Of a DNA stretch of 43,587 bases, positions 17,926 through 36,100 are shown piece after piece (within the stretch, counting starts at the first letter, position 1; each line of letters opens with the position of its first letter). The notes below the pieces were generated by a model. That model was not told where the DNA came from, did no database searches, and saw only the letters and a list, made by a program, of their open reading frames with translations. The position numbers were made by a program, and so were the translations under genes. The stretch covers positions 1-43,587 of the forward strand of contig VGYC01000044.1 of the NCBI GenBank assembly GCA_016873095.1, in the 5' to 3' direction. This stretch comes from Planctomycetota bacterium. GTDB lineage: Bacteria > Planctomycetota > Planctomycetia > Gemmatales > Gemmataceae.

Positions 17926-19158
17926 TCACGCCCGGAACACATCCACCGGACGGAATTCCTGGCCCAGCACTTGCCGGCTGGGGACGCCGAGCCAGCGGTC
18001 GAGGATGGCGGCGTAGACCTGGCGGAAATCGGTATGGTGTCGAAGATTGTCCTGGTCCAGCTGGGTGAGGCTGGGGTGAGCGCCGACCAGGCCGTTGCGG
18101 ACGCGACCGCCGACGAGGAACATCGGAGCGGCGGCGCCGTGATCGGTGCCGCGGCTGCCGTTCTCGTGCACACGGCGGCCGAACTCCGAGAACGTCATCA
18201 CCAGCACCCGGTCGCGATGGCCACGGGCCGACATGTCGCGATAAAAGGCGCTGACCGCGTCCGACAGCGTGCGTAGCAGGTTGGTGTGCGACAGCGCCTG
18301 GGCGGCATGGGTGTCGAAATTGTCGAGCGAGGTGTAGAACAGGCGAGCGCCCAGCCCGCCGTCGATCAACTGGGCCGCCAGGCGCAGATGATTGCCCAGC
18401 GGTGTGTTGGGATAAGGCACGCGCGGCTGATAGCTGCGGCCGAGCTGTTCGAGCCGGCGGCTGCTGGCAAAGGTGTTGACCGCCGTGCGCTGCACGAAGT
18501 CGAGTAGGCCGCCGCTGCTCGCCGAGGATGGCGCCGCAGTGCTCTCGATCACCGAGCGCAGGCTCTGGCGATCGCGATTGCTCGACGCCTCGACGCGAAG
18601 CTGGAAGTCTTCGAGTGAGCGGATGGATGGCACGCGCACCGGGGCGCCGGTGAGGGCGAGCGGCGCCGACTCGTTGTTGTTGGCAAGATGGAAGGATGCC
18701 GCGCCGGGGATATTCCGCAGTGCCTTGCCGATCCAGCCCTCGGGGAGGTCGCGGGCCGTGCTGCCGGCCTGCCAGACATCCATCGAACGGAAATGCGACT
18801 GGCTCGGGTTCGGGTAACCGACGCCCTGGACGATGCACAGGGAATTGTCCTGGTGCAGGCCGTGCAGGGCATTCATGGCCGGGTGCAGGCCGATGTCGTC
18901 GTTGATGCGATGAATCTGGTTGGCGGGCTGGCGGAGCGTCGGGCGGGCCCGGTTGTAGGCATCGTCGCGAAAGGGGATGACGGTGTTGAGCCCGTCATTG
19001 CCGCCGGTGAGCTGGACGACAACCAGGATGGTGTCGCGGCCGCCGGGACGGTCCGAGGCCGGCGCCTGGGCCGCCGTGCGGTTCAGGAACAGCGGCACGC
19101 TACCGCCCAGGGCAACCATGCTGGACCCGGTCTTCAGAAAATCGCGACGCGTGAACAT
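17926..19158 (-). CDS. DUF1501 family protein, Tat-exported
   Basis: This 410-residue protein begins with a twin-arginine signal (TRRDFLKTGSSMVALGG). GGAG stands 6 bases before the ATG at 19158. The DUF1501 core is clear: ILVVVQLTGGNDGLNTVIPF (44-63), GLHPAMNALH, LFYTSLDNFDTHAAQ, VLVMTFSEFGRRVHENGSRG and TDHGAAAPMFLVGG. The family belongs to the alkaline-phosphatase/sulfatase-like fold and is very expanded in Planctomycetota, where it is usually encoded next to DUF1800 or DUF1549/1553 proteins. Its biochemical role is not established. The gene follows DUF1800 by 90 bases, and that spacer is almost entirely the family A repeat. Confidence 0.95.
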   Translation of the reverse strand: MFTRRDFLKTGSSMVALGGSVPLFLNRTAAQAPASDRPGGRDTILVVVQLTGGNDGLNTVIPFRDDAYNRARPTLRQPANQIHRINDDIGLHPAMNALHGLHQDNSLCIVQGVGYPNPSQSHFRSMDVWQAGSTARDLPEGWIGKALRNIPGAASFHLANNNESAPLALTGAPVRVPSIRSLEDFQLRVEASSNRDRQSLRSVIESTAAPSSASSGGLLDFVQRTAVNTFASSRRLEQLGRSYQPRVPYPNTPLGNHLRLAAQLIDGGLGARLFYTSLDNFDTHAAQALSHTNLLRTLSDAVSAFYRDMSARGHRDRVLVMTFSEFGRRVHENGSRGTDHGAAAPMFLVGGRVRNGLVGAHPSLTQLDQDNLRHHTDFRQVYAAILDRWLGVPSRQVLGQEFRPVDVFRA

Positions 19159-19173
19159 GTCATGCTCCAGTTA

Positions 19174-19246
19174 ACAGTGTTCAGTTTTCAGTGTTCAGTT
19201 GTCAGTGCCGGCAGCCTTCTTGCTGAACACTGAACACTGAAAACTG
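19174..19246. repeat. Family A palindromic repeat, copy 2 (DUF1800-DUF1501 spacer)
   Basis: The left arm has two tandem copies of CAGTGTTCAG joined by TTTT (19175-19198). The right arm (19222-19246) is the complement, CTGAACACTGAACACTGAAA. The loop is about 23 bases. The arms are the same as in the pheA-aroF spacer (4903-4993) and longer here, so a stable 20-24 bp hairpin can form in RNA. Confidence 0.88.
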
Positions 19247-19248
19247 CT

Positions 19249-20688
19249 TCAACTCAATTGAAACTCCGGCAACGTGAGTACCAAGTGACAGATGGCGCGG
19301 ACGCGTTGTTCCTCGGCGTCGCGCTGGCTCCAGTATACGGGAACCGGTCCATTATGGGCGCGGCGGGCGTATTCAAGCAAGCGATTTCGGGCGTTGGCCG
19401 GCACATCGTTTTGCAGGAACAGCCGCAGGAAGAAATCGACCACCTCCTCGTCGCTGCGGACGTTGTTATCCCGGGCCAGCCGGGCCGGGTCGGTGCGACG
19501 GCCGAAGCGATCGTCCGTCGTCGACGTCAGGCCAAGCGCGAGGTTATGGCGGAACAGCAACGTCTGGCCGTTGAGCCAGGCCCGGCCAGCATCCCAGCCG
19601 GCCACGGATGGGGGATAGAACGGCCGTTGCCCCAGCCCTTCCAGCACGGTCACCAGGGCTGTAGTCCCCATACGCCCCTGCAGGCCGCGGACAATCTCCA
19701 GCGCGAAGTCCACCGGCGGCTTGACGCGCGAGCGATACACCTGCGCCGAGAAGAACAGGTTCGAGCGCAGCACCGTCTCCAGCATCTCGCCAAAGTTGTA
19801 ATCGCTCTCGCGGAAGCGCCGCGCCAGTGGCTCGAGCAATTCCGGCGTTGCCGGGATGGTCTCACTCACCAGGAAGCGAAACAGCTTGGCAGCGACGAAG
19901 TAAGGAGCGGACTCCTGCTCGAGGCAGATGCGAACGATGTCGGCGGGCCGCCAGCGGCCGGTCTGGCCCAGGACGGTCTTCTCGCCGTCGTCGTGCTGGT
20001 TGGCACGGAAGCCGGATCGGCCGCCTTCCAGTCTCAGGCCCGTGAAGGCCCGCGCCGCCTGGCGGATGTCCTGCTCGGTGTAGTTGCGCTGTCCGGGCCG
20101 GCGGTAGTTGTTGATGCCGAGGCTGAACAGTTCCATCAGCTCGCGGGCGTAGTTCTCGTTGGGCTGGTTGCGCTGGCTCTGGTTGGTGTCCAGCCAGACC
20201 ATCATGGCCGGGTCCGTGGACATCTCGCGGAGCATGGTGCGGAAGCTGCCCTGGGCATGGCGGCGCATCAACTCGTACTGGCCGATCATGTAACCGGCGT
20301 TGTTCACCTTGCGGTTGCTGGTGGCGAAGTGGTTGTGCCAGAAGAGGGTGATCTTTTCGCGCAGCGGATGCGGCGCGTACATCATGCGATAGAGCCACCA
20401 GGCGGTGGCTTGCTGTCCACCACCCGCGCCGGCGGGAATGCCGAGCACCATCTCGGCGGTCACGCCCAGCAGGTTGTCGCGATCGGGCTTGCCCTGCAGC
20501 AGCAGGTCGACGGTGCGGTCCGGACCGGCGCGCAGGCCTTCTTCCAGCTCCGCCATCGTCGCACCGAACGCGGCCCGGCGATAGAGGTGTCCGACCTTCT
20601 TGACGTCCCACGGCGATGCATCCGTGGGCCGATACCGCTCCCATGCTGTGCGCGGGTCGATCTGCGGCTGCTCTGGTTTATCTGGCAT
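19249..20688 (-). CDS. DUF1800 family protein
   Basis: This 479-residue protein starts at the ATG at 20688 with GAGGAA upstream. Family signatures are clear: VGHLYRRAAFGATMAELEEG near the N-terminus, REKITLFWHNHFATSNRKV (about 110-128) and NENYARELMELFSLGINNY (about 177-195). It continues with RQAARAFTGL, PYFVAAKLFRFLV and PSVAGWDAGRAWLNGQTLL. No signal peptide is obvious, although the partner DUF1501 protein carries a Tat signal; export as a pair is possible but not shown. Family members are helical and of unknown biochemistry. Neighbours are the DUF1501 gene downstream and a secreted protein gene upstream, all on the same strand. Confidence 0.95.
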   Translation of the reverse strand: MPDKPEQPQIDPRTAWERYRPTDASPWDVKKVGHLYRRAAFGATMAELEEGLRAGPDRTVDLLLQGKPDRDNLLGVTAEMVLGIPAGAGGGQQATAWWLYRMMYAPHPLREKITLFWHNHFATSNRKVNNAGYMIGQYELMRRHAQGSFRTMLREMSTDPAMMVWLDTNQSQRNQPNENYARELMELFSLGINNYRRPGQRNYTEQDIRQAARAFTGLRLEGGRSGFRANQHDDGEKTVLGQTGRWRPADIVRICLEQESAPYFVAAKLFRFLVSETIPATPELLEPLARRFRESDYNFGEMLETVLRSNLFFSAQVYRSRVKPPVDFALEIVRGLQGRMGTTALVTVLEGLGQRPFYPPSVAGWDAGRAWLNGQTLLFRHNLALGLTSTTDDRFGRRTDPARLARDNNVRSDEEVVDFFLRLFLQNDVPANARNRLLEYARRAHNGPVPVYWSQRDAEEQRVRAICHLVLTLPEFQLS

Positions 20689-22970: not shown

Positions 22971-23154
22971 GCCATTCGTCCGCGAGCATCCGACATTTTC
23001 AGCGTCATGACCAGTTGAAGACTCGAACGAGGTCGGCGCAGCAACATCCTCCGTCAACGCTCGGCCCAGCTCACAGCGTCGTCGAAAACCCTGTTTTCCT
23101 CGGACGGAGCAAGTAGAATGCACGCCGGACTGCTTGTCTGCCGGGAGGATCGCC

Positions 23155-24168
23155 GTGCCTCGCTCCAAGCCTCCGCTTGTGCCGCTACATGAATTGACCG
23201 TAGGTCAGGAGGCAGATTTCTTCGCCCTGCTGGCGGAGAAGGTTCGCGGCGCTCGCCGGGACGGCAAGCCGTTTTACACCTGCCGTTTTCGCGACGCCAG
23301 GCGAACCGTGGCCTTCATGGCCTGGAGCGACGGGCCGTATTTCGCGGCCTGCGAGCAGGACTGGCAGGAAGGCGACTTCTACAAGATTCGCGGCTGCTAC
23401 GAGGAACACAAGGTCTACGGCCCGCAGATCGCCATCGAGATGATCCGGCCAGTAACGCCGGCCGACCTGGCCGACGGCTTCGACCCCGGCCGTTTCATCG
23501 AGTGCTCGCGCTACGACCGCGACGCCATGTTTGCCGAATTGATCGGCCTGGCAGAAGCACACATCGGCGACGGCCCCCTGCGGAAGCTGGTGCTATCGTT
23601 GCTGGAGCGGCATCGCGACGCCCTCCGACGCATTCCGGCCACTCTCAAGCATTTCCATCCGTTCTGCGGCGGCTGGCTGGAGCACACGCTCTCGGTGACG
23701 CATAGCTGTCTACATCTCGTTTAAAAGTACGCGGCCCATTACCCGGACGCCAGGCCGCCGCTCAACAAGGACCTGGTAGTGGCCGGCGCGATTTTGCACG
23801 ACTTCGGCCGGGTCGTCGAGTTCAACGACAATGCCGCGAAACCGGACGCCACCGTTCCCGGCAGGCTGCTGGGCCATCTGCTGCTCGGCCGCGACCTGGT
23901 CCGCGATGCCGCCCGCGAGCAGGGCGACGTGAACGCCGAACTGTTGCAGATGCTCGAACACCTGATCGTGTTGCACCTGACGCTGCCGGAGTGGGGTTCG
24001 CCGCGACTCCCTCTCATTCCTGAATGCCTCATCCTCCATCACGCCGACGATCTCGACGCCAAGCTGGAGATGTACCTGCGCTGCCTGAGCCAGGACAAGG
24101 AACCGGGAGCGTTCACGGCCAGCGATCCGGTGCTGAAGAGACGGCTGCTCAAGGGGCGGAGCGTGTGA
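23155..24168 (+). pseudogene. YhaM-like 3'-5' exoribonuclease (OB fold + HD domain) with one in-frame stop
   Basis: Read from the GTG at 23155 (GGGAGG 6 bases upstream), the frame would encode about 337 residues, near the 314 of Bacillus YhaM. The N-terminal OB-fold part includes LVPLHELTVGQEADFFALL and FYTCRFRDARRTVAFMAW. The HD domain begins at GGWLEHTLSVTHSCLHLV. At 23722-23724 the codon is TAA. Directly after it the same frame continues as KYAAHYPDARPPLNKDLVVA, then ILHDFGRVVEF with the HD pair, EHLIVLHLTLPEWG and LILHHADDLDAKLEMYL to a TGA at 24168. The stop therefore replaces one sense codon, most simply GAA (Glu). Both halves are otherwise intact. It is either a fresh nonsense mutation or a base error. 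An intact protein would trim single-stranded RNA from the 3' end. Confidence 0.88.
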
Positions 24169-24425: not shown

Positions 24426-25565
24426 ATGTCTCGCGCGCTGCTGACGGCCTCCATCGTGACTCTTGCCGGTGTTGCCGGCTTGACCTATCTTCGGGCCGAT
24501 GCCCCACAGGGAGCCGCCCGGCCGGAGGTGGAAGTCGTCTTCTGTCTCGACACCACTGGCAGCATGTCCGGGCTGATTGACGCCGCCAAGCAGAAGATCT
24601 GGGCCATCTCGAATCAGATCGCCAGCGGCAACCCGACACCGCGCGTCAAGATTGGCCTGGTCGCTTACCGCGACCGCCGCGACGCCTATGTCACCAAGAT
24701 CACCGACCTCACCGACGATCTCGACGCCATCCACAGCGAACTCATGAGCTTCCGGGCCCAGGGCGGCGGCGACTTCCCCGAGAGTGTCAACCAGGCGCTC
24801 AACGAGGCGGTCACCAAGATTTCCTGGGGGAAGAACAAGAAATCGTTGAAGATCATCTTCCTGGTCGGCGACGCGCCGCCGCACATGGACTATCCCGACG
24901 ATGTGAAGTATCCGGAGACGTGCAAGCTGGCCGCCGGCAGCGGAATCATCATCAACACCATTCAGTGCGGCCATCACGCCGACACCAGAAACCACTGGGA
25001 GAAGATCTGCCGGCTGGCGGAAGGCTCCTACGTGCAGATCGACGCCAAGGGCGGGCCGATCGTGACCGTGGCCACGCCGTTCGACGCCGAGCTGGCCAGG
25101 ATCAACACCGAGCTGTCGCGCAAGACGCTGGTCTACGGTGACGAGCGCCGGCAAGTTACGGGCAAGAAGCAAGTCGAGGCCAACGTCGCGCTTCCCAAGG
25201 CTGCCGCCGCCGATCGCGCCGCCTTCTATGCCAATTCCATGCGCGGCGCCAGCTACGACCTGCTCGAATGCCTCAAGAACAAGAAGGTGAAGCTGGAGGA
25301 AATCAAGAAGGAGCACCTGCCCGCCGAACTGCAAAAGCTCGATCTCAAAGGACAACGTGCCTACCTCGAGAAGCTGGACAAGGAGCGTTCCGAACTCAAT
25401 CAGAAGGCCCGCGATCTGGACAAGAAGCGTGCCTCCTACATCGCCAAGAAACAGGCCGAGGACGACAGGAACCGGGCCCGCGACAGCTTCGACAACCGCG
25501 TCCTCAACATCCTGCAACGCCAGGCCATGCGTGCCAACATTCGCTACGGAGACGAGAAGAAGTAA
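24426..25565 (+). CDS. Secreted von Willebrand factor A domain protein
   Basis: The ATG at 24426 follows AAGGAG at a good distance, giving 379 residues with a signal peptide (ALLTASIVTLAGVAGLTYLR). The vWA domain (about 35-230) has the metal-site motif VVFCLDTTGSMSGLID (Asp42, Thr44, Ser46), then GLVAYRDRRDAYVTKITDL, RAQGGGDFPESVNQALNEAV and IIFLVGDAPPHMDYPDD. The domain binds a divalent ion and mediates protein contacts. A Lys/Glu-rich coiled coil fills about 285-365. The second vWA gene at 28145 has the same GGG(G)D(F/Y)PE and DAPPH motifs, so they are paralogues. A 32-bp perfect palindrome follows this gene. Confidence 0.92.
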   Translation: MSRALLTASIVTLAGVAGLTYLRADAPQGAARPEVEVVFCLDTTGSMSGLIDAAKQKIWAISNQIASGNPTPRVKIGLVAYRDRRDAYVTKITDLTDDLDAIHSELMSFRAQGGGDFPESVNQALNEAVTKISWGKNKKSLKIIFLVGDAPPHMDYPDDVKYPETCKLAAGSGIIINTIQCGHHADTRNHWEKICRLAEGSYVQIDAKGGPIVTVATPFDAELARINTELSRKTLVYGDERRQVTGKKQVEANVALPKAAAADRAAFYANSMRGASYDLLECLKNKKVKLEEIKKEHLPAELQKLDLKGQRAYLEKLDKERSELNQKARDLDKKRASYIAKKQAEDDRNRARDSFDNRVLNILQRQAMRANIRYGDEKK

Positions 25566-25580
25566 AGCCAATCTCCCTCA

Positions 25581-25665
25581 GACGGGCGTGGTTGAACGTC
25601 GCTTGGCGGTTTCGCGCACTGCCCCCCCGCGCGAAACCGCCAAGCGACGTTCAACCACGCTTGTC
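25581..25665. repeat. Family C palindromic repeat, copy 1 (32-bp perfect hairpin)
   Basis: The arms at 25586-25617 and 25629-25660 are exact reverse complements over 32 bases, with a core of GTTGAACGTCGCTTGGCGG and an 11-base C-rich loop (25618-25628). Five further bases on each side can pair if two G-U wobbles are allowed. It begins 15 bases after the vWA stop codon. A degenerate copy follows the second vWA gene at 29510-29591. Confidence 0.92.
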
Positions 25666-25751
25666 TTCCCTTTGGGATGGAATAAGTCCGCTCTCTCCGG
25701 CTCTTCGATGTAGTCGGTTCTGTACGAGTGCCGAAACCAAGGAGCCGTGGC

Positions 25752-28139
25752 ATGAACGTGGCCCGGGGCGTGCTGGCAGCGTGCCTGGTTTGCTCGTTGT
25801 TGCGCGCCGCCACAGCCGGCGAAGCGTCGAAACCCATTGACCTGGGCAAACAGGCTAAGAGCATCCTCAAGGCGCATTGCCATCGCTGCCATGGTCACGA
25901 TGGCGCCAGCGAGGGTGGCTTCAACTACGTCCTCGACCTGGGCCGGCTGGTGGAACGAAAGAAAGTCGTTGCGGGCCAACCGGGAAAATCAAAGCTGCTG
26001 CGGCGCATCATCGATACGGACGATCCCATGCCGCCGGCTGAGGAGAAGAGCCGGCCGACGAAGGACGAGATCGCATTGCTGAGGAAATGGATTGAGGCCG
26101 GAGCGTCGTCGGCCGACGCGCCGACAGACAGGCCATTTCAATCTCCAAACGACGTGTTTGAAGTCATCCGCCTGGACCTGGAAGAGTCGCCGCCCCGCGA
26201 TCGCCCGTTCCTGCGCTATCTGACGTTGACCCATCTCGCCAATGCGGGGCTTTCCGACGAGGAACTGCTCAGCTTCCGCCACGGCGTCGCCAAGCTCATA
26301 AATAGCCTGTCGTGGGGCAAGCGCATCGTCGTGCCGCGCAGCATCGATGCCAGCGGCGTCATCCAGTGCATCGATCTGCGCGATTTCGACTGGAACGAGA
26401 AAACCTGGGAGGTATTGCTGGAGCGCAATCCCTATGGCGTGAGCCTGGACACGGACGCGAACCGGCGGATCGCCGAACTGACGGCTTGCAAGCTGCCATA
26501 TGTTCGCGGCGACTGGTTCGTGGCGTCGGCGTCACGGCCGCCGCTCTATCACGACATCCTGCAACTGCCCAGGAGCGAGCGTGAGCTGGAGCGACTGCTG
26601 CGCGTGGACACGCTCGAGAACCTGCGCCAGGAACGCGCGGTCCGGGCGGGCTTCAACGGGTCCGGCGTGTCCCGCAACAATCGGCTCATCGAGCGCCATG
26701 AATCCGGCGCCACCGTCTACTGGAAGAGCTACGACTTCTCCGGCAACAGCGGCCGCAAGAATCTCTTCGCCCATCCGCTTGGCCCCGGCCGCCGGGACGA
26801 GCACTTCCTGCACGATGGCGGCGAGATCATTTTCTCGTTGCCCAACGGGCTGCAGGCCTACTTTCTCGCGGACGGCGAGGGCCGGCGCATTGACAAGGGG
26901 CCGACGGCCATCGTCAGCGATCCGCGCCGGCCGGACCGCGCCGTCGAGAACGGCCTGTCGTGCATGTCCTGCCATGCCCGCGGTATCATCGACAAGGCCG
27001 ACCAAGTCCGCGCCCATCTGGTGAAGAACGCCGACGCGTTCGCGGCGGGCACGCTGGAGACGGCCATGGCCCTCTATCCTGGGGAGGAAAAGATGCTGGC
27101 GCTGATGCGCGGCGACGCCAGGCGCTTTCAGGACGCGGTGAAGCGGACAGGAGCGCCGCTGACCGCCACCGAGCCGATTGCCGCACTGGCGGCACGATTT
27201 GAGGCAGAGATCGATCTGCCGCTGGCCGCAGCCGAGGTCGGCGTCAGGCCCGGCGAATTGCTGGAGGCGCTGCGAGCCCGCCCGCAGCTCGCGCAGTCGC
27301 TCGGTCCTTTGCGCGTCGCCGGCGGCACGGTCCAGCGGCAAGCCTTCGTGGACAGCTTCGGCGACCTAGTGGAGGCGCTCCGCATCGGCACGCACCTGGC
27401 GACGCGCAGCACCGCCGTGGCCCGCCTCGTCCGCAAGGGCAACGCGCTCCTGGCCAGTGACGCCGCCGAGGCGTTCAAGGCCTTCGCCGCCGCCCTGGAA
27501 CTGGATGCTGACGAGCCGCAGGCGCACGCCGGACAGGGGGAAACACATCGATTGCGCGGCGACCACGTCCGCGCGGTCGAGGCCTATTCCCGGGCCATCC
27601 GCCTCGACCCGCGTCTGCCGGTACTGTTCAACAACCGCGGCCTGGCGCTGCATGCCCAGGGCAAGGCGGAAGACGCGGTTGCCGACTTCACGGCTGCGCT
27701 CCGGCTCAATCCGCGCTTTGCGACTGCCTATCACAATCGCGGCGCCGTGGCCCTCGCTCAGGGAGAGCTGGAGAAAGCCATCGACGATTTCGACGAGGTC
27801 CTGCGTCTGCAGCCGCACTCGCCGCGGGCGCACAACGATCGCGGCTATGCTCACCTGGAGAGGAAGCAGTTCGGCAAGGCGATGGCCGACTTCAATCGCG
27901 CCATAGCGCTTGACGGCAAGCTGGCTGCCGCCTGGAACAATCGCGGACTCGGCCACCTGCGGCAAGATGAGCCGGCGCCGGCGATCCGTGACTTTTCGCG
28001 CGCCATCGAGCTCAGGCCGGATTTTGCTCACGCATATTTCAACCGCTCCGTCGCTTATTCCCGGCAAGGCGAAACGGCCCGTGCTGCCGCCGATCGCCGC
28101 CGTGCCATTCAACTCGATCCTTCGCTGGACAAGGAGTGA
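25752..28139 (+). CDS. Secreted c-type cytochrome-like protein fused to TPR repeats
   Basis: The ATG at 25752 (AGGAG upstream) gives 795 residues with a signal peptide (VARGVLAACLVCSLLRAATA). An N-terminal heme-attachment motif CHRCH lies at 43-47 in a context typical of planctomycete cytochromes (SILKAHCHRCHGHDGASEGG), with DPMPP near 92-96 offering a possible axial Met. A long middle part (about 125-390) of unknown fold precedes a second motif, CMSCH, at 394-398. Seven or so TPR units fill the C-terminus from about 560 (AVEAYSRAIRLDPRLPVLFN, AVADFTAALRLNPRFATAYH). It lies between two vWA genes on the same strand; the next gene starts 5 bases on. It probably acts in the periplasm as a redox or scaffold protein. 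Confidence 0.9.
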   Translation: MNVARGVLAACLVCSLLRAATAGEASKPIDLGKQAKSILKAHCHRCHGHDGASEGGFNYVLDLGRLVERKKVVAGQPGKSKLLRRIIDTDDPMPPAEEKSRPTKDEIALLRKWIEAGASSADAPTDRPFQSPNDVFEVIRLDLEESPPRDRPFLRYLTLTHLANAGLSDEELLSFRHGVAKLINSLSWGKRIVVPRSIDASGVIQCIDLRDFDWNEKTWEVLLERNPYGVSLDTDANRRIAELTACKLPYVRGDWFVASASRPPLYHDILQLPRSERELERLLRVDTLENLRQERAVRAGFNGSGVSRNNRLIERHESGATVYWKSYDFSGNSGRKNLFAHPLGPGRRDEHFLHDGGEIIFSLPNGLQAYFLADGEGRRIDKGPTAIVSDPRRPDRAVENGLSCMSCHARGIIDKADQVRAHLVKNADAFAAGTLETAMALYPGEEKMLALMRGDARRFQDAVKRTGAPLTATEPIAALAARFEAEIDLPLAAAEVGVRPGELLEALRARPQLAQSLGPLRVAGGTVQRQAFVDSFGDLVEALRIGTHLATRSTAVARLVRKGNALLASDAAEAFKAFAAALELDADEPQAHAGQGETHRLRGDHVRAVEAYSRAIRLDPRLPVLFNNRGLALHAQGKAEDAVADFTAALRLNPRFATAYHNRGAVALAQGELEKAIDDFDEVLRLQPHSPRAHNDRGYAHLERKQFGKAMADFNRAIALDGKLAAAWNNRGLGHLRQDEPAPAIRDFSRAIELRPDFAHAYFNRSVAYSRQGETARAAADRRRAIQLDPSLDKE

Positions 28140-28144
28140 CCGTC

Positions 28145-29506
28145 ATGCGCACGTTTTCCGTCGGCATCATCATGGTTGTCTGCGTCGCCTTCGGCATTGC
28201 AAGCGTTGGTTGCAGCAAGAAGGATAGCGCCCGCGAAGCGGGCGCCAGACGGTCGGCCCACTCCACGGACGGCGACGCGTCGCCGCACTGGAAAAACGCT
28301 GACAAGAAAGCCGCAGATGAAAAGAAAGGCGATCTTGGCACGAGAGATTCCTCAAAAATGACGGCGGCCGTGGCGGACGCCGCCAGCGGCGTCGAACGAC
28401 CGAAGCAGTCCAGGGAAAAAGACCCCGGTCTGCCTTCCGGCATCCTGACCGCTGGCAGCTTCGACGACAACCTCGATCCGAGGGTGTTTCTGTCGTTCAT
28501 CGACATGCGCGGCCAGGACCGCTACCTCGGCGACGCGCCGGGCAAGGTCCGCGGCCAGCGGCTCATGGTGATCGTCAAGGACCAGAGCGGCAAGCCGGTC
28601 AGCAATGCCCGCGTCAAGCTCGCGTCCAAGGATGCTTCGGCAGAGCTGATGACGCGCAGCGATGGTCGGGCGATCTTCGTGCTACCTTGGGACCGGCTGC
28701 CGGCCGATAAGGCGCTGACGGCGACGGTCCTGCCCCCCTGCGGCGGCATGCCGGCGACCGACACCATCCCACCAGGCAAGGAACGCTGGGAGATCGCGCT
28801 GCCAGGCGTGCAAACGCCGTTGCCCAGGGGCCTTGACCTTGCCATCATGCTTGACACGACCGGCAGCATGGGTGACGAGTTGCGACACTTGCAGGCGGAG
28901 ATTCGCGGCATCGCGACGGCGGTCCGCAAGAAGTTCCCGGAGGTCAACCAGCGTTACGCGCTCGTTCTGTATCGCGACGAGGGAGACGACTACGTGGTCC
29001 GACGCTTCGATTTCACATCATCGCTGGAGGAATTTCACGGGCGGCTGGCCAAGCAATCGGCGGGAGGCGGCGGCGACTATCCCGAGGCGGTGCATCGCGC
29101 CTTCGAGGAGGCCCAGCAACTGCGCTGGCAGGAGAGCGATACGGCCCGGGTGCTCTTCTGGGTGGCCGACGCTCCGCCGCACAGCCAGCATGTCGCTCGC
29201 GCCATGGCCGCCGCCGACAACCTCCGCAAGAACGGCGTCGTCATCTACCCCATCGCTTGCAGCGGCTACGACGACAGCACCGAGTTTCTCATGCGCTCCT
29301 GCGCCTTGCTCACTGGCGGGCAATTCCTCTTCCTGACGGATGACTCCGGCGTCGGCAATTCCCACGCCGAGCCGAAGATTCCCTACTACCAGGTCGAGCG
29401 CCTGGAAAGGCTCATCGTCCGCATGATCGCCGGCGAACTCTCCGGACGCCGCATCGATGCCGACCCGGCCGACATCATCCGGACCGTAGGCAAGAAAGTG
29501 AATTGA
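28145..29506 (+). CDS. von Willebrand factor A domain lipoprotein
   Basis: The ATG at 28145 is chosen because AAGGAG, inside the end of the previous gene, stands 8 bases before it; a GTG at 28136 overlaps the previous stop but lacks a site. Of 453 residues, the first 25 are a lipoprotein signal (CVAFGIASVGCSKKD). A charged, disordered linker follows, then a beta-rich part (RLMVIVKDQSGKPVSNARVK) resembling a carboxypeptidase-regulatory-like fold. The vWA domain starts at LDLAIMLDTTGSMGDELRHL, with LVLYRDEGDDYVVRRFDF, SAGGGGDYPEAVHRAFEEA and FWVADAPPHSQH. It is a paralogue of the vWA protein at 24426 and is probably translated together with the cytochrome/TPR gene. It should sit on a membrane facing the periplasm. 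Confidence 0.92.
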   Translation: MRTFSVGIIMVVCVAFGIASVGCSKKDSAREAGARRSAHSTDGDASPHWKNADKKAADEKKGDLGTRDSSKMTAAVADAASGVERPKQSREKDPGLPSGILTAGSFDDNLDPRVFLSFIDMRGQDRYLGDAPGKVRGQRLMVIVKDQSGKPVSNARVKLASKDASAELMTRSDGRAIFVLPWDRLPADKALTATVLPPCGGMPATDTIPPGKERWEIALPGVQTPLPRGLDLAIMLDTTGSMGDELRHLQAEIRGIATAVRKKFPEVNQRYALVLYRDEGDDYVVRRFDFTSSLEEFHGRLAKQSAGGGGDYPEAVHRAFEEAQQLRWQESDTARVLFWVADAPPHSQHVARAMAAADNLRKNGVVIYPIACSGYDDSTEFLMRSCALLTGGQFLFLTDDSGVGNSHAEPKIPYYQVERLERLIVRMIAGELSGRRIDADPADIIRTVGKKVN

Positions 29507-29509
29507 CGG

Positions 29510-29591
29510 ACAGGCGTGGTCAACCTCGCTTGGCAGTTTTGCGCACGCCACCCCCGCGCGAAACCGTCAAGCGTTATTCATTCAGGCTTGT
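29510..29591. repeat. Family C palindromic repeat, copy 2 (degenerate)
   Basis: The left arm (29510-29544) has GCGTGGTCAACCTCGCTTGG and the right arm (29557-29591) ends in GCGCGAAACCGTCAAGCG and a decayed tail. The order, loop composition and cores match the copy at 25586-25660, but the arms no longer pair perfectly. It starts 4 bases after the stop codon of the second vWA gene. Confidence 0.8.
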
Positions 29592-29676
29592 CTGGATCTT
29601 CTTGGCCGGTCGTCCGGAGCCACGGCAATTCCTTCCCAGGGAGATCAAGAATCGCAAGAAAACCTGGGAGGTTGAG

Positions 29677-30546
29677 ATGAGCCGTCTATTCCTGATCGCG
29701 GTGGTGGTGGGCATTTCCTTGACGGCGAGCGGCGTGGCCATGGCGCGTGGCGGCAGCGGCGGTCGCGGCAGTCATGGCGGGCATGGCATGCCCCATCGTG
29801 GCGGCCAGCACGCGACTCCGGCTCGCTATCATGCGCCGGCGCGTAGCCTTCACGCCCCGCGCGTCGTCAGTCGTTCGACGGCGACCCAGGCTCGGCCGCT
29901 GGCTTCCCATGTCCGCGCAGCCGCTCCCATCAGCCGCGCGGTCTCACGCACGGCACAACCGATCGCGCGTGCGGGCAAGACAGTTGCCGGCAAGCCCATC
30001 GGCCTGACCACCCGCGTCACCGCCACGTCGGCGCGGGCGCTGTCGGCCCAGTCAACCAGGACACTGCAACGGTTGGCGGCGACGGCCGGCCTGAACGCCG
30101 CCACGCGTGTTGCCATCGGCGCTGCCCTGACTGGCCGGGCCTTGACGCTACGGCAACGCATGCTGCTGATGGTTGCCGCCCGCGGCAACGGCGGCCTGTC
30201 GGCAGCCGAGCGTGGCGAACTCGCCGACGATCTCGCCGGCGACGACGAGGGCCCAGATGGCGACGCCGAGGAACCGCAAGAGACCGAGTCGCTGCTGGGT
30301 ATGGAGATACAGGATATGTCGGACGGCCCGGCTCTGCGTCAGGGCATGAAGGTGGGCGACATCATCCTGGCCATCGACGGCGCCGCCACGCCGGACTTCG
30401 ATTCGCTTCGGGCCGCCCTCGAAGCCGCAGGCCCGCAAGCGGATGTAATCTTCATCAACGTGGACAACGGGCAGACCGAACGCGTCATGCTGCCCGTCGA
30501 GGACACCCGCATTGGCGCCACCGTCGAGCAGGTGCAAGTCAATTAG
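29677..30546 (+). CDS. Secreted protein with basic low-complexity region and PDZ-like domain
   Basis: The ATG at 29677 follows GGGAGG and gives 289 residues with a signal peptide (SRLFLIAVVVGISLTASGVAMA). Residues about 25-150 are Arg/His/Ala/Gly-rich (GGSGGRGSHGGHGMPHRG), with no predicted fold. A short helical part (LTLRQRMLLMVAARGNG) and an acidic stretch (DDLAGDDEGPDGDAEE) follow. The last 85 or so residues look like a PDZ domain, with LGMEIQDMSDGPALRQGMKV, GDIILAIDGAATPDFDSL and a closing strand. PDZ domains bind C-terminal peptides. It is the last plus-strand gene of the vWA/cytochrome group, and separation by the family C repeat suggests possible separate control. Confidence 0.8.
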   Translation: MSRLFLIAVVVGISLTASGVAMARGGSGGRGSHGGHGMPHRGGQHATPARYHAPARSLHAPRVVSRSTATQARPLASHVRAAAPISRAVSRTAQPIARAGKTVAGKPIGLTTRVTATSARALSAQSTRTLQRLAATAGLNAATRVAIGAALTGRALTLRQRMLLMVAARGNGGLSAAERGELADDLAGDDEGPDGDAEEPQETESLLGMEIQDMSDGPALRQGMKVGDIILAIDGAATPDFDSLRAALEAAGPQADVIFINVDNGQTERVMLPVEDTRIGATVEQVQVN

Positions 30547-30696
30547 CGAACCCAGCCTGGAGAAGACCTGAGACTGAGTATCATTATTAAGTCCATATAT
30601 TTCAATATGTTATGTAAACGGCGCCTCTTGTTTTCGGCGGAGCTATTCTCTATGATGCTGAAAGAAGGCTTCACCGAATGTTCCAGGAGGATTGTT

Positions 30697-31173
30697 ATGC
30701 AGGGCAACACAGAAATCATCGAGGGGCTCAACCGAGCCCTCACCATCGAACTGACTGCGATCAACCAGTATTTCTGCCAGGCCAAGATGTGCAAGAACTG
30801 GGGATACATGAAACTGGCCGACAAGCACTACCACGAGTCGCTTGGAGAGATGAAGCACGCGGAGAAGCTGATCGACCGCATTCTGTTCCTGGAGGGAGTC
30901 CCGGAGATTGCCCGCTACGATGTGATTCGCGTCGGCACGGACATCAAGGAGCAGTTTCAGAACGACCTCGCCCTGGAGATGAATGGCGTTCGCTACTACA
31001 ACACGCTCATTGACCTGTGCATCAAGGTCAAGGACAATGGCACGCGCGAGTTGATCGATCCGATCCTCGCCGAATCCGAGGAACACGTCGATTGGCTGGA
31101 AACGCAGATCGGACTCATCGAAGCCATCGGCTTGCAGAACTACTTGTCGGAGCAGATGGGCGAGCAGAAATAG
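30697..31173 (+). CDS. bfr: Bacterioferritin with a variant ferroxidase site
   Basis: This iron-storage protein forms a 24-mer shell and binds heme between subunits. The ATG at 30697 has AGGAGG 7 bases upstream and gives 158 residues, the same as E. coli Bfr. Glu18, Glu51, Met52 (heme ligand in GEMKHAEK), His54, Glu94 and His130 align by position, as do Tyr25, Trp35 and Tyr45. The expected Glu127 of the ferroxidase centre is Ser127 here (LAESEEHVDWLE), with Glu126 and Glu128 beside it. Iron oxidation may therefore use a shifted ligand. The upstream 150 bases (30547-30696) are AT-rich and probably hold the promoter. Ferredoxin and ferrochelatase genes follow. Confidence 0.95.
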   Translation: MQGNTEIIEGLNRALTIELTAINQYFCQAKMCKNWGYMKLADKHYHESLGEMKHAEKLIDRILFLEGVPEIARYDVIRVGTDIKEQFQNDLALEMNGVRYYNTLIDLCIKVKDNGTRELIDPILAESEEHVDWLETQIGLIEAIGLQNYLSEQMGEQK

Positions 31174-31327
31174 CCCTGGGCGGCGGCCGTGTGATCTGGC
31201 CATTGACGCGAAAATTCCTAGGGATATGGTTACGGGACGAAGTACGGCTCAATCCTGGGAAGTCCCCACAAGATTGGGCCATTCTCTAACATTTCTGACC
31301 AGATTTCGGTCTGGGGGTGGGAAAAGA

Positions 31328-31636
31328 ATGACGCACACTGTCTGCGAACCCTGCAACGACTGCAAGTACACCGATTGCGTGGCAGTTTGCCCGGTCGAGT
31401 GCTTCTATCAGGACGACATGATGTTGTACATCGACCCGAATGACTGCATCGACTGCGAGGCCTGCGTGCCGGAATGCCCGGTTGAGGCGATCTTCGCGGA
31501 AGCCAACGTGCCGTCGCAGTGGACCAGCTGGACTGCGTTGAATGCCGAGAAGTCGGCCGCTATCAAGGCCTCCGGCGACGGGCATATCACCGAGAAGCAG
31601 GACGCCAAGGAAGGGCCAGGGTGCAAGAAGAAGTGA
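31328..31636 (+). CDS. fdxA: 7Fe (3Fe-4S/4Fe-4S) ferredoxin, FdxA type
   Basis: This 102-residue electron carrier starts at the ATG at 31328, with a GGGTGGG stretch upstream. The Cys pattern is CEPCNDCKYTDCVAVCPVEC followed by DCIDCEACVPECPVEAIF. That matches FdxA proteins, which hold one 3Fe-4S and one 4Fe-4S cluster; extra Cys residues lie at the N-terminus (Cys6, Cys9). The C-terminus (WTALNAEKSAAI) is the usual amphipathic tail. It lies between bacterioferritin and ferrochelatase, so it could deliver electrons for iron release from bacterioferritin, although a Bfd-type ferredoxin usually does this. The stop overlaps a possible GTG start of the next gene. Confidence 0.94.
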   Translation: MTHTVCEPCNDCKYTDCVAVCPVECFYQDDMMLYIDPNDCIDCEACVPECPVEAIFAEANVPSQWTSWTALNAEKSAAIKASGDGHITEKQDAKEGPGCKKK

Positions 31637-32655
31637 GCGAATCTCAACCAGGCCCACGAGGCGACGCCCAGTCGGGCCACCCTCGTGGGCTTGGCGTTCT
31701 CCTTATTCAGCTGGGCACGCCTGATGCCCCCACGCCTCAAGCACTGCGCCCCTATCTCAAGCAATTCCTGAGCGACCGCCGCGTCATCGAAGTCCCGGCC
31801 TGGAAGTGGTGGTTCATCCTCAATCTCTTCATCTTGCGACGCCGGCCAGCCGAGTCCGCCGCCAAGTACCAGCGCATCTGGGACAGCACGAGCGGTTCGC
31901 CGCTGCTGCACTGGACCAAACGGCAGACCGAGTTACTGCAAGTGCAATTCCCGCGTTTGCCCGTGCGCTTCGGCATGCAGATCGGCAATCCGGCGGTGAG
32001 CAAGGTTGTTTCCGAAATGATTGCAGCCGGCCTTGAACGGCTCATTGTCTTGCCGATGTATCCACAGTATTCCGCGACGACATGGGCATCCGCAACCGAC
32101 ACACTCTTCAAAGCTTTGATGAAAGAGCGACGAGTCCCAGCGCTGCGCGTGGTGCCGCCTTATCACGAGCACGCTGCCTATATTGACGCCATGGCGGCCG
32201 TCATTCGCGACGAGTTGGGCCGGCTTGGCTGGACTCCGGACCATTACATCCTCAGTTTCCATGGCATCCCGATAAAATACGCTCAGGCCGGCGATCCCTA
32301 TGCCACACATGTGAAGAGGACGACGGCCCTGCTCGTCGACAAGCTAGGCTGGCCGCGCGGTCAATGGACGCAGACGTTTCAATCGCTGTTCGGCCGCGAT
32401 CGCTGGTTGCGGCCCTACACCGAGGAAAGACTCATCCAGCTTGCGAGGGAGGGCAAGAAGCGCATCTTCGTCGCCATGCCTGGTTTCACGGCTGACTGCC
32501 TGGAGACGCTCGATGAGATCGGCTTCGAGGCGCGCGAGGCGTTTCAGCACGCCGGAGGCGAGGCCTTGCACGCCTGCCCATGCTTGAACGAGCACCCACG
32601 CTGGATAGACGCCATGGCGCAACTGGTAATGGAGGAAGGTCAGGGCTGGCTCTGA
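31621..32655 (+). CDS. hemH: Ferrochelatase
   Basis: This enzyme inserts Fe2+ into porphyrin in heme synthesis. The length is about 344 residues from the GTG at 31621 (AAGGA about 9 bases upstream) or 340 from the GTG at 31633, which overlaps the fdxA stop. The sequence after a non-conserved leader is typical: GLGVLLIQLGTPDAPTPQAL, LPMYPQYSATTWASATD, the catalytic His in YILSFHGIPIKYA, and MPGFTADCLETLDEIG with the conserved acidic residue. It belongs to the iron/heme group with bacterioferritin and ferredoxin. No start lies after the hairpin at 31652-31690 in the conserved frame, so that hairpin is inside the coding sequence. Confidence 0.95.
   Translation: MQEEVSESQPGPRGDAQSGHPRGLGVLLIQLGTPDAPTPQALRPYLKQFLSDRRVIEVPAWKWWFILNLFILRRRPAESAAKYQRIWDSTSGSPLLHWTKRQTELLQVQFPRLPVRFGMQIGNPAVSKVVSEMIAAGLERLIVLPMYPQYSATTWASATDTLFKALMKERRVPALRVVPPYHEHAAYIDAMAAVIRDELGRLGWTPDHYILSFHGIPIKYAQAGDPYATHVKRTTALLVDKLGWPRGQWTQTFQSLFGRDRWLRPYTEERLIQLAREGKKRIFVAMPGFTADCLETLDEIGFEAREAFQHAGGEALHACPCLNEHPRWIDAMAQLVMEEGQGWL
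31652..31690 (+). promoter_or_regulatory. 10-bp perfect hairpin in the start of hemH
   Basis: GCCCACGAGG (31652-31661) and CCTCGTGGGC (31681-31690) pair exactly around a 19-base loop, just after the possible hemH starts. The leader residues it encodes are not conserved. It could modulate translation coupling from fdxA to hemH. Its regulatory role is not shown. Confidence 0.35.
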
Positions 32656-33657: not shown

Positions 33658-34476
33658 ATGACGCACCCCAGAACCATCTGTTCCTGTATCGGGCTGCTTG
33701 TGGTCGCTTGCTCCACTTGCGCCCAGGAGGCTTCGAGCAAGGACCTGAACACGCTGAGCATGGAAATCGCGGCCATGCGCAAGCTCGACAGCCTGTCGAT
33801 CACTCCGGAACAGCTGAAAATCATTGCCGGCTGGGTCAACGAGACTGCCGAGAAGCCGCGCGACCGCGATCCGGCGCGAGTCAATCTCAAGTATCGCAAG
33901 GCCGTCCTCGATCTGCACGCCGCGCTGGCCCAGAAGAAGGCTGCCGACGCAGTTGTTGCCTTGCAGATCAAGGTCAACGACATCAAGGCCGTTGATCGCG
34001 TCGAGCTGGACGACGATCACGGCACGACGGCTCCGGCGCGCAAGCGTGCCGCGGAGCTGTTCAAGACCTTGAAGACCCCGCAGGTCGCCGCCTTGCTGAC
34101 CAGTGCGGAAGACTCCGAGCCGGAAGAATTGCTCTGGACCGCTCTCAAGCAAAGCCGGGAACTCAAGGACAAGGAATGGCGCGACGCCCGCGACGAGGCG
34201 GGGACCGAACTGGCCCATTCCCTGGCGGGCACCGACGATGCCATGGCTCAAAGACTCAAGGAACAGGTGGTGCAGTTGCTCGACAAAGCTCATGCCATGT
34301 CGAAGGACGATTTCGCCAAGTCGGAACGCGACTTTCAGCGGCAGATCGCCAAGCTGGCGGGTATGGCGACACCAATTGACGTGTTGCGTAACCGGGCCGT
34401 GCTGAATCTTGCGACGGTGCTGTCAAACCCGACCCTGCCGGCGGTCGTGGAGATACGACTGAAGGTGAAGGAATGA
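33658..34476 (+). CDS. Secreted helical protein, possible lipoprotein
   Basis: This 272-residue protein starts at the ATG at 33658 (GGAG upstream), 22 bases after the phosphatase stop. The leader (TICSCIGLLVVACSTCAQEA) has a lipobox-like VVAC, but ordinary cleavage after CAQ or AQA is also possible. The rest is highly charged and helical (LKYRKAVLDLHAALAQKKAA; SRELKDKEWRDARDEAGTEL; FAKSERDFQRQIAKLAGMA), which suggests coiled coils or a helical bundle. I recognise no family. It may share a transcript with the phosphatase and the iron/heme genes upstream. Confidence 0.78.
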   Translation: MTHPRTICSCIGLLVVACSTCAQEASSKDLNTLSMEIAAMRKLDSLSITPEQLKIIAGWVNETAEKPRDRDPARVNLKYRKAVLDLHAALAQKKAADAVVALQIKVNDIKAVDRVELDDDHGTTAPARKRAAELFKTLKTPQVAALLTSAEDSEPEELLWTALKQSRELKDKEWRDARDEAGTELAHSLAGTDDAMAQRLKEQVVQLLDKAHAMSKDDFAKSERDFQRQIAKLAGMATPIDVLRNRAVLNLATVLSNPTLPAVVEIRLKVKE

Positions 34477-34495
34477 ATTGCGGGCGGTCGGCTGA

Positions 34496-36100
34496 CTAAT
34501 TCTGCAGAAGCTTCGGAAGCAGGATGAAGAGCACATAGATGCCGGCGGCGGTGAGCAGCGTGTAGCCGGCGCAACGCAGGAAAATGCCGCCCCAGTAGCT
34601 CAAATTGGATGCCTCTGGAATCTCCTTATTCTGCTTTAATTCGCGATTCTTCTCCTGCTCTTCGATCTTTTTGTACAAATTGCGATAACGTACGGTCTTC
34701 TCATCGACTGTCGAGCGGGCGGTGCGGGCCAGAACGATGTTCTGAAACTCGCGGTAGGTCGCCAGCGAGCGGAAACCTTCGTTGCGGTTGCGGCTGGCGC
34801 TGGTGGCCTCCGCATCGAAGTCCCTGGCGGCGATGAGTTTGAAAACCTCCGCGGTGCTTACCTGTCGGACAATGGCCTTGCCGTTAGGCGTGGACAGGCG
34901 GACAAACCAAACGTCGGCGACTTCGGTTTCCCTGAGAGCTGCAGGCGGCGCGGCGCCTTCCAGGGTTTTGTCAACGCTGATGCGCGTGGCCGTTGGCCGT
35001 GGCGTCGGCGTCTCGGCTTCGAGAAAGCTCAAGCACGCATTGGCCAGGTCGAGGCTTTCCAGGGCGTCGATCACTTCGCCGCAGTCGGCATAGCGGTTGC
35101 GCGCCAGTTTCTGCGTCATCTTGAAAATGATCAAGTCCAGCTTCTCGGGCACTTCCGGATTCCGCTGCCGCGCGGGCGGGAACGTGCCCGCTTCTTTCGC
35201 CTGAATGACCTCGACAATCGTGCGTCCAACAAAAGGCGGTTGCCCGGTGAGCAAACAATAGAGCATGCAGCCAAGGGCATAGATGTCGCAGCGCAGGTCG
35301 GCGTCCTTGGCGCTGCGGGCCTGCTCCAGCGGCATGTACCAGGGCGTGCCCACGGCATGGCCTGTCGCGGTCAACGACATGTCCTCTTCTTCCAGCTTCA
35401 CCATGCCCAGATCGGTGACCTTCACCTGGCCCTTGGAATTGACGAGGATGTTGTCCGGCTTGATGTCGCGGTGGATGTGCCCTTCGTCGTGTGCGTATTT
35501 CAAGGCCTGGGCGCACGCCAGCGTGACGTGCAAGGCGTCGCCGACGCTCAGTCGCCCCAGGCGATTCAGCACATCTTGCAAGTTCCCGCCATCGACGTAC
35601 TCCATGGCGATGAAATGCCGGCCTTCGATCTCATCGATGGCGTAGCTTTGCACGATGTTAGGGTGGTCCAGGGCAAACATGACATCGCTCTCGCGCTTCA
35701 AACGAGCGCGCAACTTGGGGTTGTTGGCCACGTGCGGGAACAGGACCTTGAGGGCGACCTCGCGATTGAAGCTCGGTTGATAGGCGCGATAGACCATGCC
35801 CATCGCACCCTCGCCAACCTTTTTCAGAATGCGAAACTCGCCTAGCTTCTTGAGGTCCTCGGTTAACGGCGGCAATACCGTGTCATCGCTTTCCAGCGAA
35901 GTAGAAGTGTCGGGGCGGGGGGATGTGATGGCTTGCGCAGCCGGGTCGGAAGCAATGATGCGTGTGGCGCCGAGGTCGTCGGCAGCCTGGCCGCGCGCCG
36001 CACTTCCCGTATTGCCCGCGTCCTTGTCGGCGCTGGCTCCCGGCGCACGCTGCTCCGAGCGGCGCCCGACACCAGATGGGGAACGCGGTGATTGTTCCAT
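34496..36100 (-). CDS. Membrane-anchored Ser/Thr protein kinase
   Basis: This 534-residue kinase starts at the ATG at 36100 with AGGAG upstream. Residues 1-85 are a disordered leader rich in Ala, Ser and Asp. The kinase domain (about 88-350) has GEGAMGMVYRA, the ATP lysine in VALKVL (Lys118), HRDIKPDN (210-217), and DLG (230-232) in the place of DFG. The activation segment ends in PLEQ instead of APE. A linker of about 150 residues (KAIVRQVSTAEVFKLIAA) and a Glu/Lys/Arg coiled stretch precede one C-terminal transmembrane helix (YTLLTAAGIYVLFILLPKLL). The C-tail location puts the kinase in the cytoplasm. It is the third gene of a minus-strand kinase group, 166 bases after the Gfo-like gene. 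Confidence 0.94.
   Translation of the reverse strand: MEQSPRSPSGVGRRSEQRAPGASADKDAGNTGSAARGQAADDLGATRIIASDPAAQAITSPRPDTSTSLESDDTVLPPLTEDLKKLGEFRILKKVGEGAMGMVYRAYQPSFNREVALKVLFPHVANNPKLRARLKRESDVMFALDHPNIVQSYAIDEIEGRHFIAMEYVDGGNLQDVLNRLGRLSVGDALHVTLACAQALKYAHDEGHIHRDIKPDNILVNSKGQVKVTDLGMVKLEEEDMSLTATGHAVGTPWYMPLEQARSAKDADLRCDIYALGCMLYCLLTGQPPFVGRTIVEVIQAKEAGTFPPARQRNPEVPEKLDLIIFKMTQKLARNRYADCGEVIDALESLDLANACLSFLEAETPTPRPTATRISVDKTLEGAAPPAALRETEVADVWFVRLSTPNGKAIVRQVSTAEVFKLIAARDFDAEATSASRNRNEGFRSLATYREFQNIVLARTARSTVDEKTVRYRNLYKKIEEQEKNRELKQNKEIPEASNLSYWGGIFLRCAGYTLLTAAGIYVLFILLPKLLQN

Follow-up and report, generated by a model that had tools for sequence, protein, structure and literature searches.

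A conserved gene pair for a putative di-heme cytochrome/TPR protein and a likely vWA lipoprotein in one planctomycete clade

A gene pair encoding a cytochrome/TPR protein (positions 25752-28139) and a vWA protein, vWA2 (28145-29506), is the conserved unit of the locus analyzed here, since the flanking vWA1 and PDZ-like genes and the genes further downstream were not found beside the seven other pairs retrieved. The window, that is, the whole stretch of DNA under study, comprises 43,587 nucleotides and corresponds to contig C44; the genome measures 8.36 Mb and is assembled in 548 contigs. In agreement with a preliminary description of this DNA, the ORF list and the sequence place the genes for vWA1, the cytochrome/TPR protein, vWA2, and the PDZ-like protein within the range given there (24426-30546), all on the plus strand and within a span of 6.1 kb; their products look exported by eye, and a ribosome site was likewise seen by eye ahead of each of the four starts. 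We propose, with a probability of roughly 45%, that vWA2 docks on the TPR tail of the cytochrome and tethers a secreted di-heme head at the membrane. The first gene would give rise to a secreted protein with two covalent hemes, composed of a His/Met cytochrome c of the PSCyt1 kind, a second heme domain, and a TPR superhelix, and the second gene to a lipoprotein in which a long flexible tether precedes a beta domain and a vWA domain that binds metal. Docking may occur through either the metal site or the extended tether and, under this proposal, the di-heme head would therefore be held at the membrane beside an electron partner; heme 1 would act as the electron relay that links heme 2 with a partner, and the vWA metal could gate binding. 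The metal-dependent complex with a redox subunit that had been suggested for all four proteins is a reasonable prediction for the cytochrome/vWA2 pair only.

The two proteins of the pair

The cytochrome/TPR protein has 795 residues counted from its ATG, begins with a signal peptide, and is probably secreted; signal peptides and the lipobox of the window proteins were judged by eye. By its first domain, which scores 27.4 bits against a Pfam cut-off of 22 (PF07635), it belongs to the PSCyt1 cytochromes, and TPR also lies above the Pfam cut-off. Both heme motifs reported earlier are present in the sequence, CHRCH at residues 43-47 (25878-25892) and CMSCH at residues 404-408 (26961-26975). The two cysteines and the histidine of each are invariant in all 60 rows of the core alignment presented in the next section, with the exact string CMSCH in 34 rows, and since both CxxCH motifs are kept throughout, they are not due to chance. 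The sole invariant methionine of the 60 rows, M93 (26028-26030), is likely the axial ligand of heme 1, and the sole invariant histidine outside the CxxCH motifs, H316 (26697-26699), is likely the distal ligand or an active-site residue of heme 2, both assignments being made from the alignment. One of the two search patterns by which the core relatives were collected, SG[VI][SA][RKQ]NNR[LIV][IL], ends directly ahead of H316, so the conservation of this stretch is enriched by selection. Several Arg, Asp, and Glu residues of the core are also invariant.

The second heme motif lies in an unannotated domain (residues ~131-550, 26142-27401) without a Pfam match in the window sequence at E ≤ 10, a search in which the HMMER filters drop most weak matches; in four of the five relatives tried, this domain gave below-cut-off Pfam matches only. 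Two matches to the cytochrome c assembly family PF01578 were found above cut-off in the same genome. The model of the cytochrome/TPR protein (pLDDT 91.9, pTM 0.78) contains seven TPR helix pairs with 34-residue spacing, in line with the approximately seven repeats counted earlier, and five of the seven were found in register by a text pattern alone. This superhelix (residues ~555-792, 27414-28127) is indicated by Pfam, by the model, by the repeat pattern, and by its likeness to the TPR domain of OGT, which was the best of the matches listed (Z 28.8, rmsd 2.7, 245 residues aligned), with LGN complexes also among the matches listed at Z ~24. The TPR part therefore resembles, among the matches listed, superhelices that bind extended peptides (OGT, LGN), and TPR-type matches were also among the 50 listed for the full model by Foldseek plus VIA. 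TPR position 6, which in two of the listed repeats is an Asn throughout the eight orthologs, is reminiscent of the asparagine ladder of OGT.

The ATG of vWA2 lies 5 bases past the cytochrome stop, as previously stated, and AAGGAG, which forms the last two cytochrome codons, is likely the vWA2 ribosome site. vWA2 is likely a lipoprotein: a signal sequence with a Cys (by eye) is followed by a predicted disordered tether, and beta and vWA domains make up the remainder. Its lipobox, SVGC, is weak at -3; a Cys after a hydrophobic stretch recurs in the five vWA2 orthologs with a placeable start. In the vWA2 model (pLDDT 75.8, pTM 0.76), the 71 residues after the Cys (residues 24-94, 28214-28426) fall below a pLDDT of 50 and are predicted to be a disordered tether, on an alignment of only 8 rows. 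The vWA domain proper (28832-29320) carries DTTGS, GGGGDYPE, and ADAPPH, and the motifs DTTGS, GGGD(F/Y)PE, and DAPPH, said to be common to vWA1 and vWA2, do occur in both sequences. Judged by its Pfam score, vWA2 belongs to VWA_4 (PF25106), with 47.9 bits for vWA2, 46.6 bits for vWA1, and a cut-off of 27. Human CMG2 matched the vWA2 model at Z 16.6, rows within 1 Z being tied among the matches listed. Classical vWA domains have a Thr as third metal-site residue, and this residue is not evident in vWA2.

A di-heme core with exchangeable tails

The N-terminal PSCyt1 heme domain and the ~400 Pfam-less residues after it, which include the second heme site, appear to constitute an unnamed module; we refer to it as the core and regard it as a candidate new domain family. 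A scan of a species-genome collection returned 463 stretches with a core relative, 80 of which were kept as loci; the core alignment comprises 59 of these loci and the window (60 rows), 21 loci having been left out. Cores occur in Planctomycetota and Candidatus Poribacteria, as well as in a single Blastocatellia MAG and a single MAG labelled Bacteroidales. The last of these (locus L156) is likely misbinned or transferred, because its core groups with Fimbriiglobus, among Gemmataceae, in the tree. A match to PF07635 at E ≤ 0.001 was obtained for 56 of the 60 rows, and a CxxCH followed by a conserved Met is present in all 60. A second core paralog of the same genome (46% identity) is encoded on contig C15 at 34109-35743 and has a WD40-like tail by eye.

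The protein was compared with known heme proteins as follows. (i) The likeness to PSCyt1 cytochromes consists in the N-terminal heme domain above the Pfam cut-off; what follows here is instead a second heme motif in a partner domain without a named Pfam family, a TPR tail, and the vWA2 partner. The usual PSCyt1 partner domains, PSCyt2 and the PSD families, were not detected in the domain of the window protein (Pfam, E ≤ 10) and are absent among the 24 Pfam families matched by the 60 rows. The passages of PMC5615132 examined treat PSCyt1-3 along with PSD1-5, name WD40 among the interaction domains fused in PSCyt genes, describe the functions of PSCyt proteins as wholly unknown, and do not mention the core. 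(ii) At E ≤ 0.01, the core profile matched PDB sequences (FoxE and cytochromes c) in no part other than the N-terminal heme domain; matches elsewhere were weaker, with E values of at least 0.19. Two stretches of FoxE (PDB 5mab), one with a heme motif, match this N-terminal part, and FoxE has no match to the second-heme domain, the TPR part, or vWA2. (iii) The di-heme peroxidase/MauG family (PF03150, CCP_MauG) reached 15.0 bits against a cut-off of 25.6 in one of seven proteins and is absent from the 24 families of the 60 rows (E ≤ 0.001). (iv) Cytochrome P460 (PF16694) has a beta-rich domain with one CxxCH near its end and may in this respect be similar to the second-heme domain. P460 profiles built from two sequences each aligned with that domain over 8 to 28 columns around the CxxCH, which take in the heme motif and few residues besides. 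Titles and abstract openings listed by searches of the open-licence literature contained nothing that describes the core or the pair, nor did the passages of PMC5087111 examined.

The tails were scanned in 76 of the 80 loci and the window (77 tails), four tails shorter than 40 residues being left out; nine tails and one neighbor protein were also scanned singly. WD40 was found in 30 of the 77 tails, and TPRs in the window and its seven relatives. The single scans identified FGE-sulfatase (L183, L185), Peripla_BP_6 (L180), LRR with cohesin and dockerin (L191), an L7/L12-like end (L152), and WD40 (L137), with no match for L126; a text pattern detected an FGE-like end at 9 of the 80 loci. The head is constant, and the tail is exchanged. 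Two Poribacteria cores also bear TPRs, in L153 by Pfam and in L158 by a match to the TPR part of the window protein, and vWA2 adjoins neither of them; a TPR tail therefore does not need vWA2.

These tails bear on the leading alternative to docking and tethering, namely, that the core is an enzyme head, such as a peroxidase or oxidase, in which heme 1 would be the electron entry and heme 2 the catalytic site, the tails would pick the substrate or the place, and vWA2 would be the substrate or a carrier. The attachment of one head to tails as different as WD40, TPR, FGE-sulfatase, Peripla_BP, and LRR/cohesin/dockerin is consistent with this alternative, as are the one invariant Met, the one invariant non-motif His, and the several invariant Arg, Asp, and Glu residues of the core. 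However, no known heme enzyme family scored above cut-off, and H316 could be a mere bis-His ligand. We consider the enzyme head unlikely, at perhaps half the weight of the docking proposal. A wider reading appears similarly doubtful: the core would be a new exported redox head that serves as a plug-in in Planctomycetota, Poribacteria, and others, with exchangeable recognition tails that each recruit their own partner, the TPR/vWA lipoprotein pair being the first such pair seen and the vWA metal switching attachment. The two fixed candidate heme ligands, the defined partner gene, and the natural tail swaps offer a direct experimental way in.

Recurrent neighbors of the core were also inspected in the 12 largest groups listed. 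The largest of these in Planctomycetota are a kinase-like family (7 loci) and a family that by eye is DUF1501-like (6 loci), encoded mostly on the opposite strand; the Poribacteria groups span up to 12 loci and reflect a shared neighborhood. Genes for TPR proteins closely follow the core gene in Poribacteria (L153, 10322-12079; L158; L187; and others), and in L153 a gene with TIR_2 plus TPR starts within ~30 bases of the core stop. Genes that resemble those for prepilin peptidases, pseudopilins, and response regulators (by eye) lie near Poribacteria cores on the same strand.

Conservation of the pairing and the role of vWA2

We searched 95 genomes of the family with vWA2 (E ≤ 1e-20), with core residues 131-550 (E ≤ 1e-60), and with vWA1 (E ≤ 1e-60). 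Orthologs of vWA2, with 54-64% identity, were found in 8 of the 95 genomes, including that of the window; the remaining matches, in those 8 and 15 further genomes, had at most 35% identity. In each of the eight genomes, the vWA2 gene directly follows that of a cytochrome/TPR ortholog, with which it shares contig and strand, as checked with full-length proteins. Core matches were present in 61 of the 95 genomes, the best eight (63-100% identity) being those of the eight vWA2 genomes, and the next-best match (61%, G008) has no adjoining vWA2 and a tail without a Pfam match. Among the 80 named loci, vWA2 is present at 7, all in the TPR/vWA2 clade, and at none of the 73 others, 52 of which have at least 2 kb of downstream sequence; the genomes of these 7 named loci are identical to 7 of the 8 family genomes. 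The named relatives of the pair are labelled Gemmataceae or Planctomycetota bacterium, with one Singulisphaera sp. In the tree of 60 cores, the eight TPR/vWA2 forms constitute one clade (support 97/85; 0 of 500 shuffles as low). All eight genomes belong to a single clade of one family, so the conserved pairing represents few events. The gap between the two genes ranges from 5 to ~350 nt in the six cases with a placeable vWA2 start, starts having been chosen by us, and tight coupling is therefore not general.

Adjacency inherited without function would be compatible with the restriction to one clade, yet we deem it highly improbable, since the pairing is kept in all eight cases at 52-62% cytochrome identity to the window protein while the other neighbors look dissimilar by eye in all but the near-identical loci L123 and L124.

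A functional relationship of another kind has somewhat less in its favor than the enzyme head and is also unlikely in our judgment: vWA2 may help to assemble the cytochrome or to load it with metal, and be no lasting partner. The vWA proteins MxaC/L, NorD, and CoxE serve other redox enzymes in this way and work with a MoxR ATPase. That a vWA gene adjoins the gene of a redox protein in all 8 cases would fit such a role; against it, vWA2 looks exported, and no MoxR ATPase was found among the window genes scanned. The combination of vWA and TPR also recalls the Bat proteins, in whose locus TPR proteins are encoded beside the vWA protein BatB; the pair may work in a similar way and is at most a candidate member of that system. 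BatB (3ibs) was the best bacterial chain for vWA2 among the matches listed (Z 16.4, rmsd 2.8, 174 residues aligned), tied with many vWA domains, and the closeness of the modeled fold to BatB is non-specific. Bat proteins are not known to contain heme, and vWA2 differs from them in its lipoprotein-like character; neither the MoxR ATPase nor the membrane-spanning vWA proteins of the Bat system were seen among the window genes scanned. According to the part of PMC3557215 considered, Leptospira biflexa with all bat genes deleted had no oxidative-stress phenotype.

Flanking genes and dispersed palindromes

The genes at the two ends of the four-gene run encode exported-looking proteins that are neighbors outside the conserved unit: vWA1 (24426-25565, plus strand) and the PDZ-like protein (29677-30546, plus strand; PDZ_6 27.7 bits versus a cut-off of 27). 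The start at 29503 given by the ORF caller for the latter is too early, because an ATG with a ribosome site is located at 29677. Neither gene was detected by tblastn in the retrieved flanks of the other seven pairs, the downstream flank in G086 being only ~0.5 kb long, and beside the pairs the vWA1 query matched nothing but vWA2, a cross-match that was to be expected. vWA1 matched at 28 places in 22 of the 95 genomes at E ≤ 1e-60, and only one of these places, that in the window, is on the same contig as a core match; as several assemblies are fragmented, a separate contig is weak evidence alone. Three of the eight pair genomes (G086, G087, and G012) have no vWA1 at this threshold, and the retrieved flanks of four vWA1 orthologs contain no pair-type neighbor. 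A paralog with 67% identity to vWA1 is encoded in the same genome (contig C69, 28757-29827).

The run is further divided by copies of a palindrome that set vWA1 and the PDZ-like gene apart from the pair and cut it into three. The copy in the vWA1-cytochrome gap (25580-25666) is 87 bp long, has 38-nt arms that are 95% complementary, and gives a predicted RNA fold of -78.1 kcal/mol (z -14.9), and that in the vWA2-PDZ gap (29509-29593) folds at -45.1 kcal/mol (z -5.8). In the genome, 77 matches at 40 or more places were found, some of half length, and the count is a lower bound because 40 of 134 candidates were scored. We read these palindromes as putative REP-like elements located at the ends of transcription units.

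Synteny led us to reject vWA1 and the PDZ-like protein as members of the unit. The four-gene envelope module of the preliminary description, for which four exported-looking products of one strand within 6.1 kb speak, as does the location here of two of the four genome places that match these vWA proteins (E ≤ 0.001), has very little probability left, given the absence of vWA1 and the PDZ-like gene beside the other seven pairs, the lack of vWA1 in three of the eight pair genomes, and the division by palindromes. Among the genomes searched, the suggested order vWA1-cytochrome-vWA2 was found in the window alone; what stands of it is cytochrome/TPR followed by vWA2, for 8 of 8 vWA2 orthologs. We also rejected a defense system, the four proteins having no PADLOC match.

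Several further features were noted. Genes for bacterioferritin, an FdxA-like ferredoxin, and ferrochelatase are consecutive at 30607-32655 of the window; a functional link to them was rejected, as none was found beside the other seven pairs (tblastn), and a ferredoxin match was seen at 1 of 73 other core loci (L129). On C15, a palindrome copy (35944-36024) is located directly upstream of the second core paralog. The same contig contains an ORF with CIMPNHVH (L051, 4311-5078) that appears by eye to be like REP-associated transposases and has no Pfam match at E ≤ 1e-4. Upstream of vWA1, at 23134-24168 on the plus strand, an OB/HD-like protein (YhaM-like by eye) is encoded, the first half of which has no Pfam match at E ≤ 1e-4; its gene has an in-frame stop at 23722-23724, beyond which the same frame is open. 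On the minus strand, at 17926-20688, DUF1501 and DUF1800 genes adjoin.
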